From positions 32,543-56,737 of the forward strand of contig NW_003134840.1 in NCBI RefSeq assembly GCF_000003605.2: a DNA stretch of 24,195 nucleotides, written 5' to 3'. The position numbers were made by a program, and so were the translations under genes. The notes under the pieces were generated by a model. The model did not search any database. It saw nothing but the letters and a program-made list of their open reading frames with translations, and was not told the origin of the DNA. Shown piece after piece: positions 4,288-24,195 of this stretch (the first letter of the stretch is position 1; each line of letters opens with the position of its first letter). The stretch is from Saccoglossus kowalevskii. Lineage: Eukaryota > Hemichordata > Enteropneusta > Harrimaniidae.

Positions 4288-5623
4288 AGCTACCTCTGAG
4301 GTTCTCCACACGTGTCAGGGGGGAATCTCGTCTCGTCTTTCTATCGCGTCCCCTTGAGATACGGGATCGGGAAAGTCACTTAAACTCTATAGTCAAATAA
4401 ACGCACACAACGAAATACGTTTCAACTCTCGTCTTAGTCGGTCAGTCGAGCACTCTATAAGACACAGCGCCCTGGGAAAAGTCGCCAAGACTATCGCAAG
4501 GCTGACCCAAGACTCTGCTAGACTGCGTCGAGACTCGCCCCAAGACTAAGACTCTCCAGGACTGCCTCTGTCGTGGTGTACTCTCCAAGACCAACTAAAA
4601 ACTCTTTATTCACTTTTAAAACCTTAACCAATTACAAAGAAGTATTAAGACTCTAAGACGTGGCCTTCAATCATACAGCCAATCACACTAAGTACTGAAC
4701 ACGTCATATCTTTTGATTAATCGTTCACTACATTAATAACTGTGAATACCAAACTGTCAGAAATAGTAGTCCGAATAGCGACGGTTATCTCGTAATTAGT
4801 TCCAAATCACTGAGTCAAGTATCAGGGGTAAATTCTTCTTTCTGGGGTTTCTCCACACTTGTCAGGGGGGAATTTCGTCTCGTCCCTATATCTCGTCCCC
4901 TTGAGGTACGGGATCGGGAAAGTCACTTTACTTTACAGTCAAATAAGACACACACAACGAAATACGTTTCAGCTCTCGTCTTAGTCGGTCAATCGAGCAC
5001 TCTATAAGACACAGCGCCCTGGGGAAAAACCCCCAAGACTCTCACAAGGCTGACCCAAGACTCTTTTAGACTGCGTCAACACTCGCCCCAAGGCTCTCCA
5101 GGACTGGACCACGACTCTGACTCTCCAGGACTGCACTCTCTCTACTGCGTCTATCGTGCTGTGCTCCCCAAGACCAACTCAAACTCTCTTTATTCATTTT
5201 CAAAACTCTAACCAATTACAAAACAGTAAAAAGACTCTAGGGCGTAACCTTCAATCATAAAGCCAATCACACTAAGTACTGAATACGTCATATCTTTTGA
5301 TTAATCGTTCACTACATTAATAACTATGGATATACACTGTTAGAATGAGTAATCTAAATAGCGGCGGATATCTGGTAATTAGTTCCAAATCACTGAGCCA
5401 AGTTCCGTCCAAAACTTCAAATAGACCTAAACGATGACAGACATAACACAGCAATTCGCTAATAATCAGCTAATTAAGTCGGTTAACAGATACGCAAAAA
5501 CAAATTCATGACACAAGTTCCGTCCAGAACCTCGCATAGGCCTAAACGATGACAGACATAACACAGCCATTCGCTAGTAATCAGCTAATTAAGTCGATTA
5601 ACAGATACGTGCAAATAATTTCA
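4288..5623 (+). repeat. LTR-like repeat copy A, split by insertion of copy B
   Basis: Copy A runs from about 4288 to 4819 and resumes at 5518 to about 5623. It has the same order of blocks as copies B and C. These are CTCCACAC..GTCAGGGGGG near the start, a CCGATCCCGT-type block (on the other strand), a region rich in AAGACTCT quasi-repeats at 4490-4560, a CCAATCACACTAAGTACTGAA block, and a tail with AACGATGACAGACATAACAC. Its first ~30 bases, as judged from B and C, are missing or diverged. Its end (TTCATCATA) aligns with TTCATGACA of B. No protein is encoded. Read on the minus strand it looks like a solo LTR: a CCAAT-like box, an AATAAA followed by GT-rich sequence, and near-TG..CA termini. 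A non-autonomous DNA element is the alternative. Confidence 0.8.
4820..5513 (+). mobile_element. LTR-like repeat copy B, complete, nested in copy A
   Basis: This 694-bp unit starts TATCAGGGG and ends TTCATGACA. Exactly these termini recur in copy C, so the boundaries are supported by two independent insertions. It interrupts copy A at a point where B and C read continuously (CCAAGTTCCGTCC). The four bases CAAG lie on both sides (4816-4819 and 5514-5517), as expected of a short target-site duplication. On the minus strand the termini are TGTCA..TGATA, close to the TG..CA rule for LTRs. No internal retroelement genes lie between copies, so both would be solo LTRs. The superfamily is not determinable from this window. 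Confidence 0.8.
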
Positions 5624-7278: not shown

Positions 7279-8014
7279 TCATGTATAATTAGTGTAGTTT
7301 GTAGCATTAACGACGCCATACAATGTTGAATTTATAATTGATTCCACAGGCATGCCAGATTCGAAGTATCTTGGAGCCTCCTCGTCATACAGAACTCCTG
7401 AAATAGAAGTCAAGGTTGATTTAATTTTTCAAAACATTATTCAGAAAAATCGGAGATACATACAGGACATGGATATGTTACATGACCTTATATCGACATC
7501 AAGTGACAATGCGTACAAGTCATACATAAAATAAATTATCATTATACAAGGAAAGAATTTTCTTAGGGTTTGAATAACTCTTGTTGTTATTATGCTAATA
7601 GTGATTATTTGTAAACACAAAAAATATTAATCATTTATTTCTTGGTCTTGCAATTTGGTAAAATCTGCTAGTTGTCAATTACATCATGGGACAGTAATTT
7701 TTAAAACAGTTGTAGTTGAAGTATGCTTACCAGCCACACATGCCGTCATAAAACACGTGACTGATCCAGCTATCAATGCCCTTACAGATAAAACTGTAAT
7801 TTCAGTCTTCTTGGAAGGAACCAGGGAGCCAAATGCGCCAATGAATATAGCAACACCACCGATATTAGAGAATCCACATAAAGCATAGGTAGCAATGACT
7901 TCTGAACGTACCTAGAGAAGAAAAAATAGATTTACAATTCATGTTATAAAAAGTATGTTCCTGGTTAAATTATAGTTATATTAAAACATGTCATCTGTAA
8001 GACAAAAGGCCGCT

Positions 8015-8060
<46 letters not shown>

Positions 8061-11000
8061 TGATATGCCCTAATGCGCCTTAATAGATACCGGGGTACAG
8101 TTGCTGGAATGTTTCACTCGATCGTTTATAGTTTAATAATAGAGAGTATGTATAGTACTACCGAGATTGTTGGACCAATGCCAGTATTTCTATTCGTAAT
8201 ATAACCACCTAGTTGTTTGTATGCAACAAACTCATTGAGGAATGTCTTGACCCCAACCAGTTCAGCCACAATGTAACAGTCTTGTGGATCGACGCCCATT
8301 AACCATGCAACGGGATAAAGCACATAACGACATAGGAACTGTAACATAATGAACATATTGAAACAAAAATTAACGTATATATTTTTAACACCAACACTCC
8401 AACAACAAAAAACAACAAAAACAGCAACAATCACCGCAATCAACAATCATCGCAAGGTGTTTCTTATTAATTTCTTTCACCTGAAAGTTGAGTTCTGGAT
8501 GATCCACCATGCTGCCAAGCCATGATAACACAGCGTTAAGAAACGCTAATGTAGAAAGAATTGCTATCAACTGAGTGATAATACTCGCACATATGTTCAT
8601 CCCATCTGTTGCTCCATTTGCTGCAGCTTCTAAAATATTCTTTTCAGTCCTGGGACATAAACAAATATTGTAACATATCATCGACCATATTTGGACATTT
8701 TATTACGTAATTATTGAATTATATCTCCAACCAATTTTGGTTTTGAATCATTATTATTACAATAAATCGCGATATATTATTTTAAAATTCGAGCTAGTCC
8801 GAATGAAACTCACCGCTTTGGTGTGTACATATTGGTTTGATGTTTAGTCTTTGGTCTTCCCAGCTCAGGATAGAATATTTTGGAGACAGCAAGCGCAGCA
8901 GGCGCCGACATAACCGATGCTGATAATAGATGTGAAATACTGATGCCAAATGCAGCGTAGACACCAAGAATATTACCGGCTATAGTTGCATAACCGCTTG
9001 TTAATACAGCGTGTATTTCCGATGATGTCATGTCATTGAGATACGGTTTGACTACCAATGGAGCCGCTGTCTGGAAACAAATCTCGGAATTACCGTGTGT
9101 GAATATAGCATTAGTTTATGTTATACGCTGCAATTGGTTTTAACACTGGTCGCTCTGCTAAATTGCCTGTCATACTTTCCAGGATATTCTCTATGGTCTT
9201 CATTGGAATGGGTGTTATACGATAATCTCATTTTAAAATAGTATTTCAGATACGATCGGTTGTAGGTGCGCTACTTTTATACTATGAATAATCATGTAAC
9301 GGCACAATAATTTAATTAGACTACAGAAGAAAACGAATGATCGGATGCACTATTGAAAAAAAAATAAGGAAAAAGTTCCTTTTGTACCCAACCCGTAATA
9401 TTCAATTGTATATGTCCCTTCTAGACAATTGTAGGTGTCCTTAGGAGGGCAATATACAATTAAATTAGGGAATGCTGGAGGGCAGTGGTAGGATTAGAGT
9501 AACTAAAAGTAATATATGATTAAGCGAGGACCATTCTAGTATTGTCGATGCAGTTGCAGTATAAATGTATATATACACAAATTGACTACTCACACAAACA
9601 ATATATTGAAGCTTACTTACCATGCCCATAAAGACATTGGCGGCTGCGGTCATGGCCTCTGCACCGGAAGCGTCCATAGTATATTGCATCGCCCATGCAA
9701 ATTTGCCAGTAATCCAATGCATTAAACCAGTATAAAAAAGCATTTCCATTATATAACTAAAAAAAATTATCGCAGGAAGAGCCTGGAAATTGATAAACAA
9801 AAATACAATTTACAATGATGTATGTTATAAAGGGTAATAAAAGATATTTCGCCTGTATAGGAAAAACACACCGTGTACCTTGAAAATAAAAAAATGCACT
9901 TCAAGAGGGGCACTGAAAACGAATTCGGCCCCAACATCCGCATATTCAAGGAAGGTTTGCGTCCATCTCTCCAGTACCAGGAACACGTTGAATCCAACAC
10001 TTGTACGCAACACAATAATTCCGATTAAAAACTGTNNNNNNNNNNNNNNNNNNNNNNNNNNNNNNNNNNNNNNNNNNNNNNNNNNACGGTCCCCCAATTA
10101 ACCTGTAAGAAGTGAGAAAGAAAATCTTTGACAAGATGAATAAAAATAAGTATAAAAATATATATCTCAAATATTTGCACTGTTGCAAATTAATCTAAAT
10201 TTTATATTTAGATTGTATAACGATTGTAACAGTAGAACAAATTGTAAATACGTGTCATCGATATATGCAGTGTGTGCATAAACATGTTTTTCACATATTC
10301 GATCATATGCATCAACGCTATAGTCGCCGGGTTCCTGGACATATTCGGCATTGATTGAGGTGTTGAAATAAAAAGGTAAATTTGTATCATGTTAGAGGTT
10401 ATGTTTGATTGATAACTTGAAAACAACATACAAAACCGGGTCGTTTGGAGCAGAGCAAACTTGCCAGAATAAAAACTACAATGCCGACACCTGATATCAA
10501 CTGTTGGGGGTTGCTTGTAATTGACTTGAATATTCCCACGTAACCAGCAAATGCAATCAAGGCTGCTAACAGAAGTATGTACACAAGCCTGCAAAGAGAG
10601 AGACACACACACAAGAAGTTTAGAATAATGATATACGGAGACGTTTTATTCTTTATAGTATTCATTTATAGTAACTGGTAAATTTTCAAAATAATATGTA
10701 CTTAAGGGGGACATATTATCTTTATACAGAGTATGCTATTTTTAATAGATTTAAATTATTTTTTAACAGTGCTATTTTATTACATAGGGAACAAAGGACG
10801 ACGTGCTGCTCACGAGTATTGTCCACTGTCGGTATACAAAAGTGTGTTTATCCAGTAAACTGTAAATTCTTCACTTTATTGAGTTTTGACCACACCAAAT
10901 ATCACATACACGCAACACACGACACTTGCAAGTATCATAACTATGTAATGTTTTCATTTATCAAGTATTGCACTTTCTTAGATCAGACAATAGATACTCG

Positions 11001-12716
11001 GTCTTGCTGCTGGAATGTGTCTTTATTTAAAAGTGTTGTCAAAAGGTTGAACTCTTTATTCTTATCATATGTTCAATTAAGAATATTATGTCTAGCTGTG
11101 AATAACACATACAAGGAAATATCAAAGTAACCACTCCTTATGAGCAAAGCCATTTTATCCAATTTAATATATACCAATTTGACAACGATCAATACTAATT
11201 TATATATAAATTTGTTCTAGTCATGTTATTTACACAATAACGACCCCCCCCCCCATAGTTTCTATAATGGATGAGGGCAACGGAAAGTTCAAGTTAATGT
11301 GTTATTACTAAGCCGAATATTATTGCGTCCTTACACGAATCCAATATACGCTTTGGGGATTCATTATTGCTATTAACACCACCATCAATTCTGAACAAAT
11401 TTAGTTAATTCTGAGTTTGTTTGTTTTTTGTTATTAATTTACTTTCGAATACGATTTACATCACGCAGTGACGATATAAAGCTAAGGCGTCCTTAACAAC
11501 TTTAATTTTGAAATGTTGATTTGTGACATGCAATAATGGACAGCGCGTCGTTCTTCATTCACCAGATAATATAACGCAACTGTTAAAAAGTAACACGGTT
11601 TAAATATAATAAACAAAACATACTCCCTATAAGAATAACATGTTTCCCTTTCAGTATAATTCTAATATAATTCTGTTTCAATTTCCTGTTACAGTCACAT
11701 TTTCAATTGAATAAATCAATCCATCTCTGCTGAATATTCCTTTATTTCTCAAAAAAATACCTACCATGACAACAGCCTCCGGTTTCTCTTGATGAACCTC
11801 GAACATGGCTCCCAGAAACGTGTGCAAATGACTTCACCCCAGTATTTATCGATCAGTCCCCACGTAACATACAAGACAGCAAATACGGTAAAAATCAACA
11901 ATGCCAACGCACGGTGAAAGTCTTTCAACATTGCAAATGAGAAATATATTACGTAAATGACTAGTAAAACACCGTAGGTGGCATACCGTATGTACTTTCT
12001 ATGATGTCGACAATATGACGTGATTGCGTGGTCCAGTTGGTCGATTGTCTATGCAGAGAAAAATACAACATACATCATTCTCACATATCATTCAAAGCAC
12101 GAGTGTTTGTTTATACAACATACTATCGCTTTTTTGGATATTGAGGGTGAAAATTGCTGAAGGAATGTAAGGCCACATATATGTAAGAACCCTGCAGAAA
12201 ATATGACTAAAATTCTATTTTTTGAATTATTAATATGTATATATTTGTGGGTTCTTATATATATATTCAATTATTTATTGTTATATTGTTATATCGATTT
12301 TATTATAATTTATGTATTTGCTAAATAATATTGTAAGTTTGCCAACTGCTAATGTGGCGGTAATTAATACAGAAAGTAACAAGAAAAAAAAATAATCGGA
12401 TAATAATATTAAGGTCAGATTCTTGAAGGGTGTATGATATAATTTTATGTTCTAATTGTGCGCTACAAGAGATGTAAGATTTAAGATTATTATATATAAT
12501 TATGAAACTATCATTACCAAAAAAACAATAATATTCCAGTTAAAATCTAATTTAATAAATATTTGGAAAGCTTACTCTTGTGAGACAGTTACTGGGAGTG
12601 ATGGCGGGCTCCTCTTCTTCACTTTCCCCGTTGTCTTTTTCAATTGGCGTTGAAGGGAGTTGGTCAGGCGATAGAGAATCCGGTACTGGGTCATCTTCCG
12701 TATGAGTAGGTTTCAT
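7279..12716 (-). CDS. Concentrative nucleoside transporter, SLC28/CNT family, ten coding exons
   Basis: This is a plasma-membrane, cation-coupled nucleoside importer by family. Exons are 12716-12576, 12048-11765, 10588-10432, 10035-9879 (continuing into the N gap), 9782-9621, 9070-8814, 8649-8481, 8338-8162, 7911-7731 and 7397-7279. All visible introns are GT-AG and all visible phases match. The product is 600 visible residues plus about 12 hidden, against roughly 650-690 for human CNTs. Residues 1-47 are a hydrophilic tail with an EEEE run. Residues 48-194 cover the basic region and the first membrane helices. The core follows, with SVMSAPAAL, the CNT signature VGVKTFLNEFVAY (residues 470-482 plus gap) and YALCGFSNIGG. 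The last 39 residues carry four N-glycosylation sequons. The ATG has A at -3. The pocket departs from known CNTs: GMTA replaces GQTE (299-302 plus gap), and S/T-V/L becomes N-I (333-334). Three mammalian paralogues exist (SLC28A1-3), and I do not assign orthology. Confidence 0.95.
8013..8057. repeat. TA microsatellite in an intron
   Basis: About 45 bases of alternating TA, with one interruption (AAAT near 8027-8030), lie in the intron between the eighth and ninth coding exons of the transporter gene. Confidence 0.95.
10036..10085. other. Assembly gap of 50 Ns inside the transporter gene
   Basis: The Ns directly abut the codon for a glutamine at the start of QFLIGIIVLRT. In other CNTs about a dozen residues ending in a WG.G(L/M)Q-type string lie between the preceding exon (ending KRPGF) and this point. 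The missing 5' part of the fourth exon and its splice acceptor should therefore lie in this gap. A round 50 may be a placeholder rather than a measured length. Confidence 0.9.
11244..11254 (+). repeat. Poly-C tract of 11 bases
   Basis: Eleven consecutive C residues lie in the second intron of the transporter gene. It is a simple homopolymer, prone to length error in sequencing. Confidence 0.9.
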
Positions 12717-12856
12717 TTTAAACCATACCTTTAAAAACCCAAAGTAATTCAGAGATTAAAAGTTGGTCCAAGTAGGTCATCAAATTCGCTACCCTCGTTC
12801 ACAGCTAGTCATGCTGTAACCACTAAATTCCTCCACAAATATAATTATTGCCTTAC

Positions 12857-12976
12857 GACTTGGCCGGCGAATGTCTGATTTGAGTTTGCTGTGGGGCAAT
12901 CTGGTGCAGGTTTAAGTAGGTGACGAGTCCACGAATAGTTGATGCAATCGCACAAACTAACTAGATCAAATGAAAT
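12857..12976 (-). other. Candidate non-coding 5' exon of the SLC28-like gene
   Basis: On the minus strand a splice acceptor (ATTGCAG) at 12977 and a strong donor (GTAAGG) at 12856 enclose 120 bases that are less AT-rich than their surroundings. They contain no ATG and have stops, so they would be untranslated leader. They could join an acceptor-like TTTTTAAAG just before the first coding exon, where the sequence runs GTATGGTTTAAA into the start codon. This is inferred only from splice motifs. Confidence 0.3.
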
Positions 12977-13977
12977 CTGCAATGGTGTAATTATATGTTA
13001 AATTTTACCCAATATTGTGTGTGTGTAACGTCAAGTAAGAAGGCAAATCAGATTTCACATAGATTACTATTATATAGTAGTGGTGGTGGTAGGTAATCGT
13101 AGTTACTGGTGAATTATCCAATATATAGCCAGACCGTTTTAGCAATTTGCCCTTCATCAATCAATATTCTGAATAGAGTGAGAGATCGTGGAATATATAT
13201 TTATCATTATCAATATAAACTCATGGTTGATTTTTCATGGTTGCTATTCTGGCTGGGGCATTCGCGTGATTTGTCTCATATTTGGTCACTTTTGCCATGA
13301 CCTCCAACCATGTTGTTGCGAACGTAAATCGACAAGTGTACTCACCTGTTGGTTCACCTTATCGCCATGGGAATTGGCTAGATTGCTGTCTACTCCTACT
13401 TGGACATATTGCGCTGATGATGTACGTGAAGTGATCTCCATGCTGCTAACTTGTATGGTGCATTCAAATGATACTGAATATCAACCTGTTTAGTGCAAAT
13501 AATGGAAAAATTGTGTTTTTTTTATATACGGCCATTCGAATTTTATGAAGGTTATGCGTATGAATATACAGACTCGGTCTTATTTTGTCATCCTGATATG
13601 ATGGAATGATATAATACGAGGTTTTATGGGGTCAGTTAATCTGATCATGGCATTTTCAGACGTTTTCAGATATTGTGTCACAGAAACATTATTACATAGC
13701 AGCTAAAATGTTTTCCAATAATATACACTTTACTAAAACAACAATCTTATGCATTCATTTTAAATCGTCTAAATGATTGTAGGATTATTGGAGGCATTGA
13801 GGCTATTGTAATGCATGTGCATACACCCTCAACAGAGTGGTGGGTGGTATATGACTAGTGGGATTATACTTGATTAGTTATATTAGGGATGCAACAAACG
13901 CCAAAGGTGATTGCAAGAAATACCTCAGTGTTCACTTCTGCATAGCTTCCCTTGATATAATTATGCATGCAAGCGAA

Positions 13978-15417: not shown

Positions 15418-16094
15418 TGTCATGAATTTGTTTTTGCGTATCTGTTAACCGACTTAATTAGTTGATTATTAGCTGAATTGCTGTGTTATGTCTGTCATCG
15501 TTTAGGCTTATTTGAAGTTTTGGACGGAACTTGGCTCAGTGATTTGGAACTAACTACCAGATAACCGTCGCGATTCTGACAGTTTATATTCATAGTTATT
15601 AATGTAGTGAACGATTAATCAAAAGATATGACGTATTCAGTACTTAGTGTTATTGGCTTTATGATTGAAGGTTACGCCTTAGAGTCTTTTACTGTTTTGT
15701 AATTGGTTAGAGTTTTGAAAATGAATAAAGAGAGTTTGAGTTGGTCTTGGAGAGCACAGCACGATAGAGGCAGTCGAGAGAGAGTGCAGTCCTGGAGAGT
15801 CGAGTCCAGTCCAGGGGCGAGCCTTGAGGCAGTCCAGTCTTGGGCGAGTCTTGGTTCAGCCTTGTGAGAGTCTTGGGGACTTTTCCCCAGGGCGCTGTGT
15901 CTTATAGAGTGCTCCAAAAGATCGACTTAGACGAGAGTTGAAACGTATTTCGTTGTGTGTGCCTTATTTGACTGTAAAGTTAAAGTGACTTTCCCGATCC
16001 CGTACCTCAAGGGGACGCGATAGAGAGACGAGACGAGATTCCCCCCCCCTGACAAGTGTGGAGAACCCAGAGAGAAGAGAATTTCCCCCTGATA
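15418..16094 (-). mobile_element. LTR-like repeat copy C, inserted in the LINE
   Basis: This 677-bp unit is the reverse complement of copy B and has the same termini (TGTCATGAA at 15418, CCCCTGATA ending at 16094). All internal blocks are in the same order. These include the tail block (15420-15540), the TACTTAGTGTTATTGGC block (15640-15660), the AGTCTTGG quasi-repeats (15775-15880) and the CGATCCCGTACCTCAAGGGG block (about 15994-16013). Near its right end the sequence CCCCTGACAAGTGTGG is echoed about 40 bases later by CCCCTGATAAGTATG, a partial tandem repeat also seen in copy B. Copy C is flanked by the 132-bp duplication and not by a short target-site duplication. Confidence 0.85.
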
Positions 16095-19671: not shown

Positions 19672-20250
19672 CTGTAAAACATGTTGAAAAAGCGACATGC
19701 AATTTTAGAAAATTGTGGCAAAATGACGTAATAGCGAAATGTTGATTTAGCGAATCTCTCTTGTCATTGTTGATTTCCCGTTTTCACAATACTTGTCTGT
19801 CGCGCGCCAAAACAAATGCGCAGTTATCACCTCCATAAAAACAAAGAAAAACTGTTAGGTGTAATTTGATTCTGTTCGCAATGATAAAAATCTGATTCAA
19901 CAGAGATTTGAAAAAGCGGGTATTGTTGCTGCGTTACATCCAGAACATTGACCTTTCATATTGTGACTCCGTAATAATATATCAGTATCACTTCATTTAT
20001 TAATTTTTCATTGAAATAATGACCATAATGAATACGTTTATTTTTTTGTGTTAATCTACATTTCAATCTATCATGTCAGTATGTATTTTGTTTTATGTTG
20101 TTTACAAAGTGTTTGTCTGGAGAAAAAGTCGTTGTTTGGCCACCATTTTGAATTTATAATGAAGTCATTAGCAACATCTTAAATTAGCGAATTAGTTCTC
20201 TCGTTTAATTCACTAAACAAACATGCTCGCGAAAAAGACATGTTTTACAG
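19672..20250. mobile_element. MITE-like element with short terminal inverted repeats and TA flanks
   Basis: The left end reads CTGTAAAACATGT and the right end reads ACATGTTTTACAG, a perfect 13-bp inverted repeat. TA dinucleotides flank it on both sides (19670-19671 and 20251-20252), as expected for Tc1/mariner-type target duplication. Next to both termini are AGCGA/TCGCGA-type sequences, and TTAGCGAAT occurs near each end (about 19747 and 20185). It is 579 bp long and encodes no protein, so it would be non-autonomous. A 15-bp inverted match, counting the TA, over this distance is unlikely to be chance, and the TA flanks support the call. Confidence 0.65.
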
Positions 20251-20803
20251 TACATTGTCGCATATGCATGCCTGTTACCGAACATACACTGGTTTAGTAA
20301 ATAAGTATTTATAGAAAGAATTTCCATGAAGACATCTAGATTCATTGAAATACATAAATGTTCCCAGAAAAAATTTTTCAGGTTTACTTACACAGTGTGG
20401 GTCGCGGTGTAAAATGATGCAAAAAGAGTTACATTACTTAATTACAGAAATTTAGTGATACCTGAAAGCAAGTGTACATTACATCTAAAAAATATCACAG
20501 AGAAAGAATGGTTTCAGAATGGTTTCAGTACATTGTCGCATATGCATGCCTGTTACCGAACATACACTGGTTTAGTAAATAATTATTTATAGAAAGAATT
20601 TCCATGAAGACATCTAGATTCATTGAAATACATAAATGTTCCCAGAAAAAATTTTTCAGGTTTACTTACACAGTGTGGGTCGCGGTGTAAAATGATGCAA
20701 AAAGAGTTACATTACTTAATTACAGAAATTTAGTGATACCTGAAAGCAAGTGTACATTACATCTAAAAAATATCACAGAGACAGAATGGTTTCAGAACTG
20801 GTA
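20248..20803 (+). repeat. 278-bp tandem duplication
   Basis: Two adjacent copies (20248-20525 and 20526-20803) align at a constant offset of 278 bases. Both begin CAGTACATTGTCGCATATG and both contain GTTTACTTACACAGTGTGGG. Over about 270 bases I see two differences (AATAAGTATT against AATAATTATT, and GAGAAAGAAT against GAGACAGAAT). The last few bases diverge. The left edge lies in the final bases of the MITE-like element. The duplication is recent, or else the two copies are two alleles placed in tandem by the assembler. Confidence 0.92.
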
Positions 20804-23186: not shown

Positions 23187-24195
23187 TATTTGCGAAAATT
23201 GTGGTGTGGCATTTTATAAATGTTATGAATAAAAAAGCATTATCAACAGAGTATATTATATTGGCACTGTAATAATAATATTGGCACTGTGACTGGCACA
23301 CATATGGCTTGTATGAAAGAAGTCTATCAAAAAGGTATCATGACGTGTTCCGACTTGTAGTATTGGATCTTGGCATTTATGTGGTGTAGTTGGTAGTCAT
23401 GGCGACTTCAATTGATGTTATATTTAATGTCGGCTCTACGAGGATGTTGGCGTCAAAGTATATCGGGCCTTCATCATTATACAACACACCTGCAACGGGA
23501 AATGCATATAAAACTGAGTACTATATACATGGTGTATGAAACATAAAAGAGAGACTGACACTCACAAAATACAATGCGCTACAGGTGTTCACAATCAAAT
23601 AAACGGTTATTTTGTTTTCCTAGCCTTACAAAAAACGATAAACACATTGCCCAAAAAAGGTGTTTATGTCAACTTTAAGCAGAAGGAAAACTTTCGAGGA
23701 TTATTAAAACAAATACATAGACATGCGCATAATGTTCTCCAAGTGCTAATCACGTGATTTCAGTAACTAGATTAAAGCGTACATCGTTGACTCCGCTATT
23801 ATAGTAATATAAACAATAAACATTCCGAATATAACAACCCCTATATCTACCATTGAATTCTGGTTGTTGCTGTGAAGACCTCTTTATTATGTGTACTAGT
23901 ATGTGGATGCCTGTGACCGCTTCTGCATGTATATCTCGTTACTAGAGTACCTCGTTCACAACACGTTATTTCGAGACTAGGACAGTCAGTGTGGTATAGT
24001 GTGGTATACTTTTCGAATTCCGTGCAGCGGTGAGGTGTCATGTGAACGTGTATGCTGCGTTTATATGTTCGTAATAACCCTCGTAATAAGCCCCGAATTA
24101 GTATGTCTAATTTTATGGAAACATGTATTACAGCTCTAAAACTTTGTCTGAGCAGACTACAGCCACAGTCAGCTGGCGCACGCGTGATAATAAAA
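20804..24195. other. AT-rich intergenic stretch, no gene recognised
   Basis: The open frames here are short and low in complexity, and none shows a domain, transporter-like exon or splice-framed series. A small perfect hairpin (GATAGTTGGAACTATC) lies near 21372-21387. A duplicated GACCGTAAAT occurs near 21785-21803 and a duplicated ATATTGGCACTGT near 23258-23290. Confidence 0.55.
23107..23185. repeat. Long uninterrupted AT microsatellite
   Basis: Alternating A and T run for 79 bases without interruption. Read on either strand it gives an artefactual tyrosine-isoleucine repeat in a minus-strand frame, which is not a real protein. Confidence 0.97.

Follow-up and report, generated by a model that had tools for sequence, protein, structure and literature searches.

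The human transporter hCNT2 (SLC28A2), a purine-preferring member of the SLC28/CNT family of trimeric elevator transporters, which carry nucleosides and are powered by Na+ or H+, has Met at the site equivalent to Gln341 of hCNT3 and keeps the Glu of hairpin 1. How that Glu works has been described for vcCNT: in PMC4139061, Glu156 of hairpin 1 reaches N3 and C4 of uracil via water molecules, and a purine base displaces water. That paper also reports that the vcCNT and hCNT3 pockets differ by one residue, and it describes the contact Phe (the F563 site of hCNT3) as universally conserved in the CNT family. Titles cited in PMC4139061 and PMC5465479 indicate that both conserved CNT glutamates were mutated earlier to study substrate and cation coupling.

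Mutants of the human proteins provide further detail. According to PMC7440666, hCNT3 E343A still binds uridine at ~1.19 mM, compared with ~0.325 mM for the wild type (~3.7-fold weaker), and S568P abolishes binding. The same paper describes hCNT1 S319G/Q320M, which has broad selectivity, and the quadruple mutant S319G/Q320M/S353T/L354V, which is hCNT2-like. In PMC5465479, hCNT3 E343C and S568C are inactive in oocytes, although too little E343C reaches the cell surface for a verdict on its activity, and Cys mutants of the matching Glu in hCNT1 and NupC show low yet measurable uptake.

Here, we describe a CNT gene in a 24,195-nucleotide stretch of DNA from Saccoglossus kowalevskii (C2659:32543-56737; hereafter, the window). 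The gene model has 12 exons on the minus strand, from 13441 to 7279. Exon 1 (13346-13441) is proposed from its ATG at 13441, an open frame, and a gtgagt donor rather than from homology, and the boundaries of exons 2 (12857-12976) and 3 (12576-12728), which would encode N-terminal parts, the latter acidic, are inferred from AG/GT borders and open frames. Exons 4 (11765-12048) and 5 (10432-10588) encode an N-terminal hydrophobic region, and each has a modelled counterpart in four of six paralogous loci, a fifth model for exon 5 being spurious. Exon 6 (9879-10102) is partly unreadable; its remainder, FLIGIIVLRT...FFIFK, matches CNT3 by tblastn and falls in PF01773. Matches by tblastn also support exon 7 (9621-9782), which ends in NVFMGM and supplies the Na1 Asn and the N-terminal half of hairpin 1; exon 8 (8814-9070), which starts with TAAPLVV and includes the TM7 motif AGNI; and exon 11 (7731-7911), which contains LCGFSNIGG. 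Exons 9 (8481-8649) and 10 (8162-8338, with NEFVAY inside) are supported by tblastn and by exon modelling in the paralogues, and exon 12 (7279-7397) encodes the C terminus and ends at a TGA at 7281-7279. Frames are open and borders are AG/GT in exons 4, 5, and 7 to 12 and in the readable part of exon 6.

By its domains and motifs, the predicted protein is a member of the SLC28/CNT family. Its Pfam matches, PF07662 (E 2e-74), PF07670 (E 1e-14), and PF01773 (E 2e-7), all exceed the cut-off, and the Nucleos_tra2_N, Gate, and Nucleos_tra2_C domains are ordered as in that family; Nucleos_tra2_N is matched partially (profile 33-72 of 74), exon 6 being partly unreadable. The part of the protein after the unreadable stretch scores 409.5 bits against NCBIfam TIGR00804 (nupC; profile 37-401 of 401), for which the cut-off is 442. 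The best solved relatives are 8tz1 and 6ksw (SLC28A3), followed by 4pb1 and 3tij (vcCNT). We take 8tz1, whose structure entry is titled only "Sodium/nucleoside cotransporter," to be bovine CNT3. By tblastn over the window, identity is 193/368 residues to 8tz1 and 119/317 to vcCNT.

The window also holds features outside this gene. On the minus strand, an open frame at 16930-17424 matches the reverse transcriptase domain RVT_1 (E 1e-15), and the adjoining frames up to 18769, which have no Pfam match, look LINE-like. At 20240-20802, a 278-base unit occurs twice, head to tail, with 98% matches. Two stretches that flank the gene, 5008-5211 (plus strand) and 15707-15901 (minus strand), have similar translations (DTAPWGK.PKTLTRL...) in the list of open reading frames and resemble a dispersed repeat. 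An Rfam scan of the window at the gathering threshold gave no matches.

An earlier note on this DNA had proposed an SLC28 paralogue with remodelled nucleoside contacts and retained Na1 residues, and residue comparison bears this out. Hairpin 1 reads GMTA across an exon junction (GGC ATG at 9626-9621, followed by gtaagt; ttccag, followed by ACA GCG at 9070-9065), TM7 carries AGNI from 8980 with the Asn codon AAT at 8974-8972, and TM10 carries FSNIGG from 7872 with the final Gly codon GGT at 7857-7855; these motifs stand, to the base, where the note had placed them. We compared nine nucleoside contacts, listed from PMC7440666 and PMC5465479 Table 3, with S374 added from selectivity data. At the sites of hCNT3 Q341, T342, E343, S374, V375, E519, F563, N565, and S568, the window protein has M, T, A, N, I, E, F, N, and G. 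The residues that the note had listed as kept, namely, the NEFVAY Glu, the Phe and Asn of FxN, the Cys of LCGF (C561), and the Asn of NVFMGMT, are all present. At the Na1 positions N336, V339, T370, and I371, the protein has N, M, T, and I, and we take the Met as acceptable, since V339 contributes a backbone carbonyl (PMC5465479, Table 3).

Compared with mammalian CNT3 (SLC28A3; human 6ksw and 8tz1), then, the protein shares the Na1 residues, NEFVAY, and LCGFxN but has GMTA instead of GQTE, AGNI instead of AGSV, and, beyond the contact Asn, GG instead of GS, keeping four of the nine contacts. With vcCNT (3tij and 4pb1), it shares the E519, F563, and N565 sites, but vcCNT has GQTE, AGGV, and a Ser that contacts the 3'-OH where the window protein has GMTA, AGNI, and Gly. 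The window protein departs from the canonical pocket of hCNT3 and vcCNT in lacking the hairpin-1 Glu and in having Gly, not Ser, at the S568/S371 position. The Gly-Met of hairpin 1 is common to the window protein and hCNT2, but hCNT2 retains the Glu that the window protein lacks.

To look for an alternative exon that supplies the Glu, we used CNT3, vcCNT, and the window protein as tblastn queries against the window and found none; the search returned only the known exons, a second last exon, and otherwise weak rows. One candidate for such an exon, an AERP string within intron 7, was rejected, as there is no suitably placed AG upstream by eye and a stop occurs within 15 codons. The second last exon, at 23377-23489 on the minus strand (tblastn E 1.5e-6), is 50% identical to exon 12, with pS of 0.72 and pN of 0.28 over 37 codons. 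No other exons for this copy were found by tblastn in the window, and the fetched sequence beyond the window end, which is mostly N, gave no CNT matches. This exon points to a third tandem copy. Duplication of CNT genes is known from insects, where PMC9467524 describes one to three copies and a recent duplication in Drosophila.

A PF07662 profile scan of the 572-Mb genome yielded 27 exon matches that group into seven loci, so that the genome has at least seven CNT genes. These are the window gene; its tandem neighbor L089, which also lies on contig C2659, at a distance of ~19 kb; L091 on C1618; the pair L092 (6343-9320, plus strand) and L093 (6222-827, minus strand) on C1000; L094 on C1347; and L095 on C349. 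Exons 7 to 11 of the six paralogues were modelled under the requirement of an open frame and the phases of the window gene, and their openness is thus partly built in. Models failed for exon 12 in five of the six and for exons 4 to 6 in some, and these exons are excluded from all counts. Hairpin 1 reads GMTA in the window gene, GMTT in L089, GQTE in L091, SIAE in L092, SGGE in L093, GQSE in L094, and GQTE in L095, with residues 341 and 342 of L092 and L093 depending on a modelled, phase-constrained exon junction. The Glu is kept in five of the seven genes and is absent solely in the tandem pair, as Ala in the window gene and Thr (ACA) in L089.

The window gene and L089 form a clade (support, 100/99, in a tree with 12 of the 80 bacterial loci described below), and the loss of the Glu probably predates their split. 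Like the window protein, L089 has the GMT motif and no hairpin-1 Glu; it differs in having Thr for Ala, together with the ordinary AGSV and FSNLGS. The earlier idea that GMTA, AGNI, and FSNIGG form a clade signature is rejected by this sister gene, which reads GMTT/AGSV/FSNLGS. Grouping of the window pair with the C1000 pair has support of only 82/85.

Elsewhere in the family, only L091 has all nine vcCNT contacts unchanged, and its predicted pocket is an ordinary one. L094 carries F563Y, V375T, and A564D, and L095 carries S374D, V375A, and A564D. The C1000 genes keep E343 and the Na1 residues, and in both E519 is replaced by Val, N565 by His, and S568 by Gly; in L093, F563 is additionally replaced by His. 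L092 and L093 are 86% identical; of 313 codons, 43 differ in the encoded amino acid and 50 differ silently (pN, 0.07; pS, 0.26). Judged by these substitutions, the pair are probably not ordinary nucleoside carriers. The wider family, and the C1000 pair especially, is a larger surprise than the window gene, for there the second conserved Glu is gone, and the rest of the ribose contacts with it.

For a broader comparison, we used the best 80 of 516 confirmed bacterial loci, a sample biased to relatives of vcCNT, and eight more distant bacterial CNTs from plasmid records (8 of 82 matched). The query for the bacterial loci was the part of the protein that follows both hairpin 1 and TM7, and the E343 site lies outside both the query and the search patterns; NEFV is part of one of the two patterns, and the presence of the E519 Glu in 80/80 of these best 80 of 516 thus reflects the search in part. 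All of the best 80 of 516 and 8/8 of the distant rows have the hairpin-1 Glu. Ala at this site, which the note had considered might prove common among ordinary transporters, occurs in 0/80 of the former, 0/8 of the latter, and one of the seven genes of this genome. Among the distant rows, L098, a CNT from a Parabacteroides plasmid, reads GMTE and so has Met at the 341 site alongside a retained Glu. Another, L101, is a distant CNT-family protein on Erwinia haradaeae plasmid pBioThi, a name that hints at genes for biotin and thiamine; as a guess, its cargo may be a non-nucleoside. In viral contigs, the patterns tried detected no CNT relative.

The other pocket sites vary to different degrees. 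Of the best 80 of 516 bacterial loci, 77 have Ser at the S568 site, 2 have Ala, and 1 has Thr; at the S374 site, Ser (51 loci) and Gly (21) are commoner than Ala (7) and Thr (1), and Asn does not occur. The CNTs of the Saccoglossus genome have Gly, Ser, Asp, and Asn at S374. Because this site varies both in bacteria and in this genome, AGNI appears the least surprising of the three motif changes.

The pocket of the window protein is also unusual for how little it is conserved relative to the whole. Four of nine 8tz1 nucleoside contacts are retained at 52% overall identity, which is no excess over that identity (P 0.78), while vcCNT retains eight of nine at 44% identity (P 0.007). In the best 80 of 516 bacterial loci, with overall identity of 34 to 45%, nine contacts are kept in 34 loci, eight in 42, seven in 3, and five in 1, such that 79/80 keep at least seven. 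When the contact and Na1 positions are taken together, the window protein keeps 7 of 13, as does L054, the bacterial locus with the fewest, and 8 are kept in 13 loci of the same sample. A divergence restricted to the pocket was considered and rejected: the protein differs at 10 of the 49 columns that are invariant in 81 bacterial rows and CNT3 (8tz1), and among those 10 only E343 is a listed contact, with A564 sitting between two contacts. As read from these alignments, the usual extra conservation of the pocket is lost in the window protein, yet other parts have moved too.

How should this pocket be interpreted? We propose, with about even confidence, that the window protein is a working, Na+-coupled, elevator-type CNT with weakened pyrimidine recognition and low affinity. 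In line with a working gene, an alignment of nine CNTs has a single column, R583, where all eight others agree and the window protein does not. In this scheme, Na+ would still bind at Na1 and power the elevator stroke, as suggested by the retained Na1 residues, E519, F563, N565, and C561. Loss of the Glu would remove the water bridges to pyrimidine N3 and C4, and Met-341 together with Asn-374 and Ile-375 might favor purines or some other base over uridine at the base site. The Gly at 568 would loosen the grip on the ribose 3'-OH, making low affinity probable, and it may matter as much as the loss of the Glu. The note had called the protein a purine-leaning or novel-substrate paralogue. The Met-341 shared with hCNT2 fits the first of these, as do the broad selectivity of hCNT1 S319G/Q320M and the hCNT2-like quadruple mutant (PMC7440666) and the water data for vcCNT (PMC4139061): because the Glu acts there on uracil via waters that purines displace, pyrimidines should suffer more than purines when it is missing. 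By such analogy, a purine preference is plausible.

The note had also singled out Glu-to-Ala as the most surprising change. Bacteria have Glu there in 80/80 of the best 80 of 516 and in 8/8 distant rows. The weight placed on the substitution alone was overstated, as hCNT3 E343A still binds uridine (PMC7440666). The same observation (~1.19 mM) favors a reading in which the Glu is dispensable, the pocket changes affect affinity and not selectivity, and the protein is an ordinary CNT with broad nucleoside selectivity and reduced affinity. This reading also draws on the low, measurable uptake of hCNT1 and NupC with Cys in place of the corresponding Glu (PMC5465479), on the variation of bacterial CNTs at 341, 374, and 375, including the Parabacteroides GMTE protein, and on L054, which keeps five of nine contacts. 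However, S374N, V375I, and S568G accompany the Glu change in the window protein, and the Glu is invariant in both bacterial sets, so that we regard an ordinary carrier as possible but doubtful. By analogy with the inactive hCNT3 E343C and S568C, a loss of transport is also possible.

A further reading keeps the same elevator and Na+ coupling and assigns them a non-nucleoside cargo, such as a nucleobase or another small solute. In the window protein, E343, which contacts the base, and S568, which contacts the ribose, are both lost, and the C1000 pair has lost E519, N565, and S568 despite few protein changes (pN, 0.07, versus pS, 0.26); against this, the main ribose and ring contacts E519, F563, and N565 are all retained in the window protein. 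A new substrate is a serious rival to weakened pyrimidine recognition, even though we consider a non-nucleoside cargo rather improbable for this protein. A bolder version, which we hold to be unlikely if slightly less so, extends to the family: the SLC28 fold might have been remade into a set of transporters for new substrates, in which the tandem clade without E343 keeps E519, the C1000 pair without E519 and other ribose contacts keeps E343, Na1 and slow protein evolution are maintained, and the cargoes are novel for CNTs. The most mundane account, that of an artefact or a dying gene, we judge very improbable. Exon 6 is partly unreadable, and a single-base miscall (GAG to GCG) would alter the residue at the Glu site, but the absence of the Glu is common to both tandem genes (Thr, ACA, in L089), and a base-call error is therefore unlikely. 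Three more contact sites besides Met-341 are altered, the readable exons have open frames and AG/GT borders, and pN is below pS between the window gene and L089 (0.26 and 0.78 over exons 7 to 11, where silent sites are near saturation and the direction alone counts); all of these also speak against a pseudogene.

Among the matches listed in our literature search, in which subscription papers are poorly covered, no work concerned the loss of this Glu in animals or invertebrates or a CNT family of this kind. A natural clade without one Glu and a pair without the other are ready-made tests of the role of each. Such variants may reveal how a nucleoside carrier gains new cargo, and, as nucleoside drugs are carried by human CNTs, natural variants of the pocket bear on drug selectivity too.
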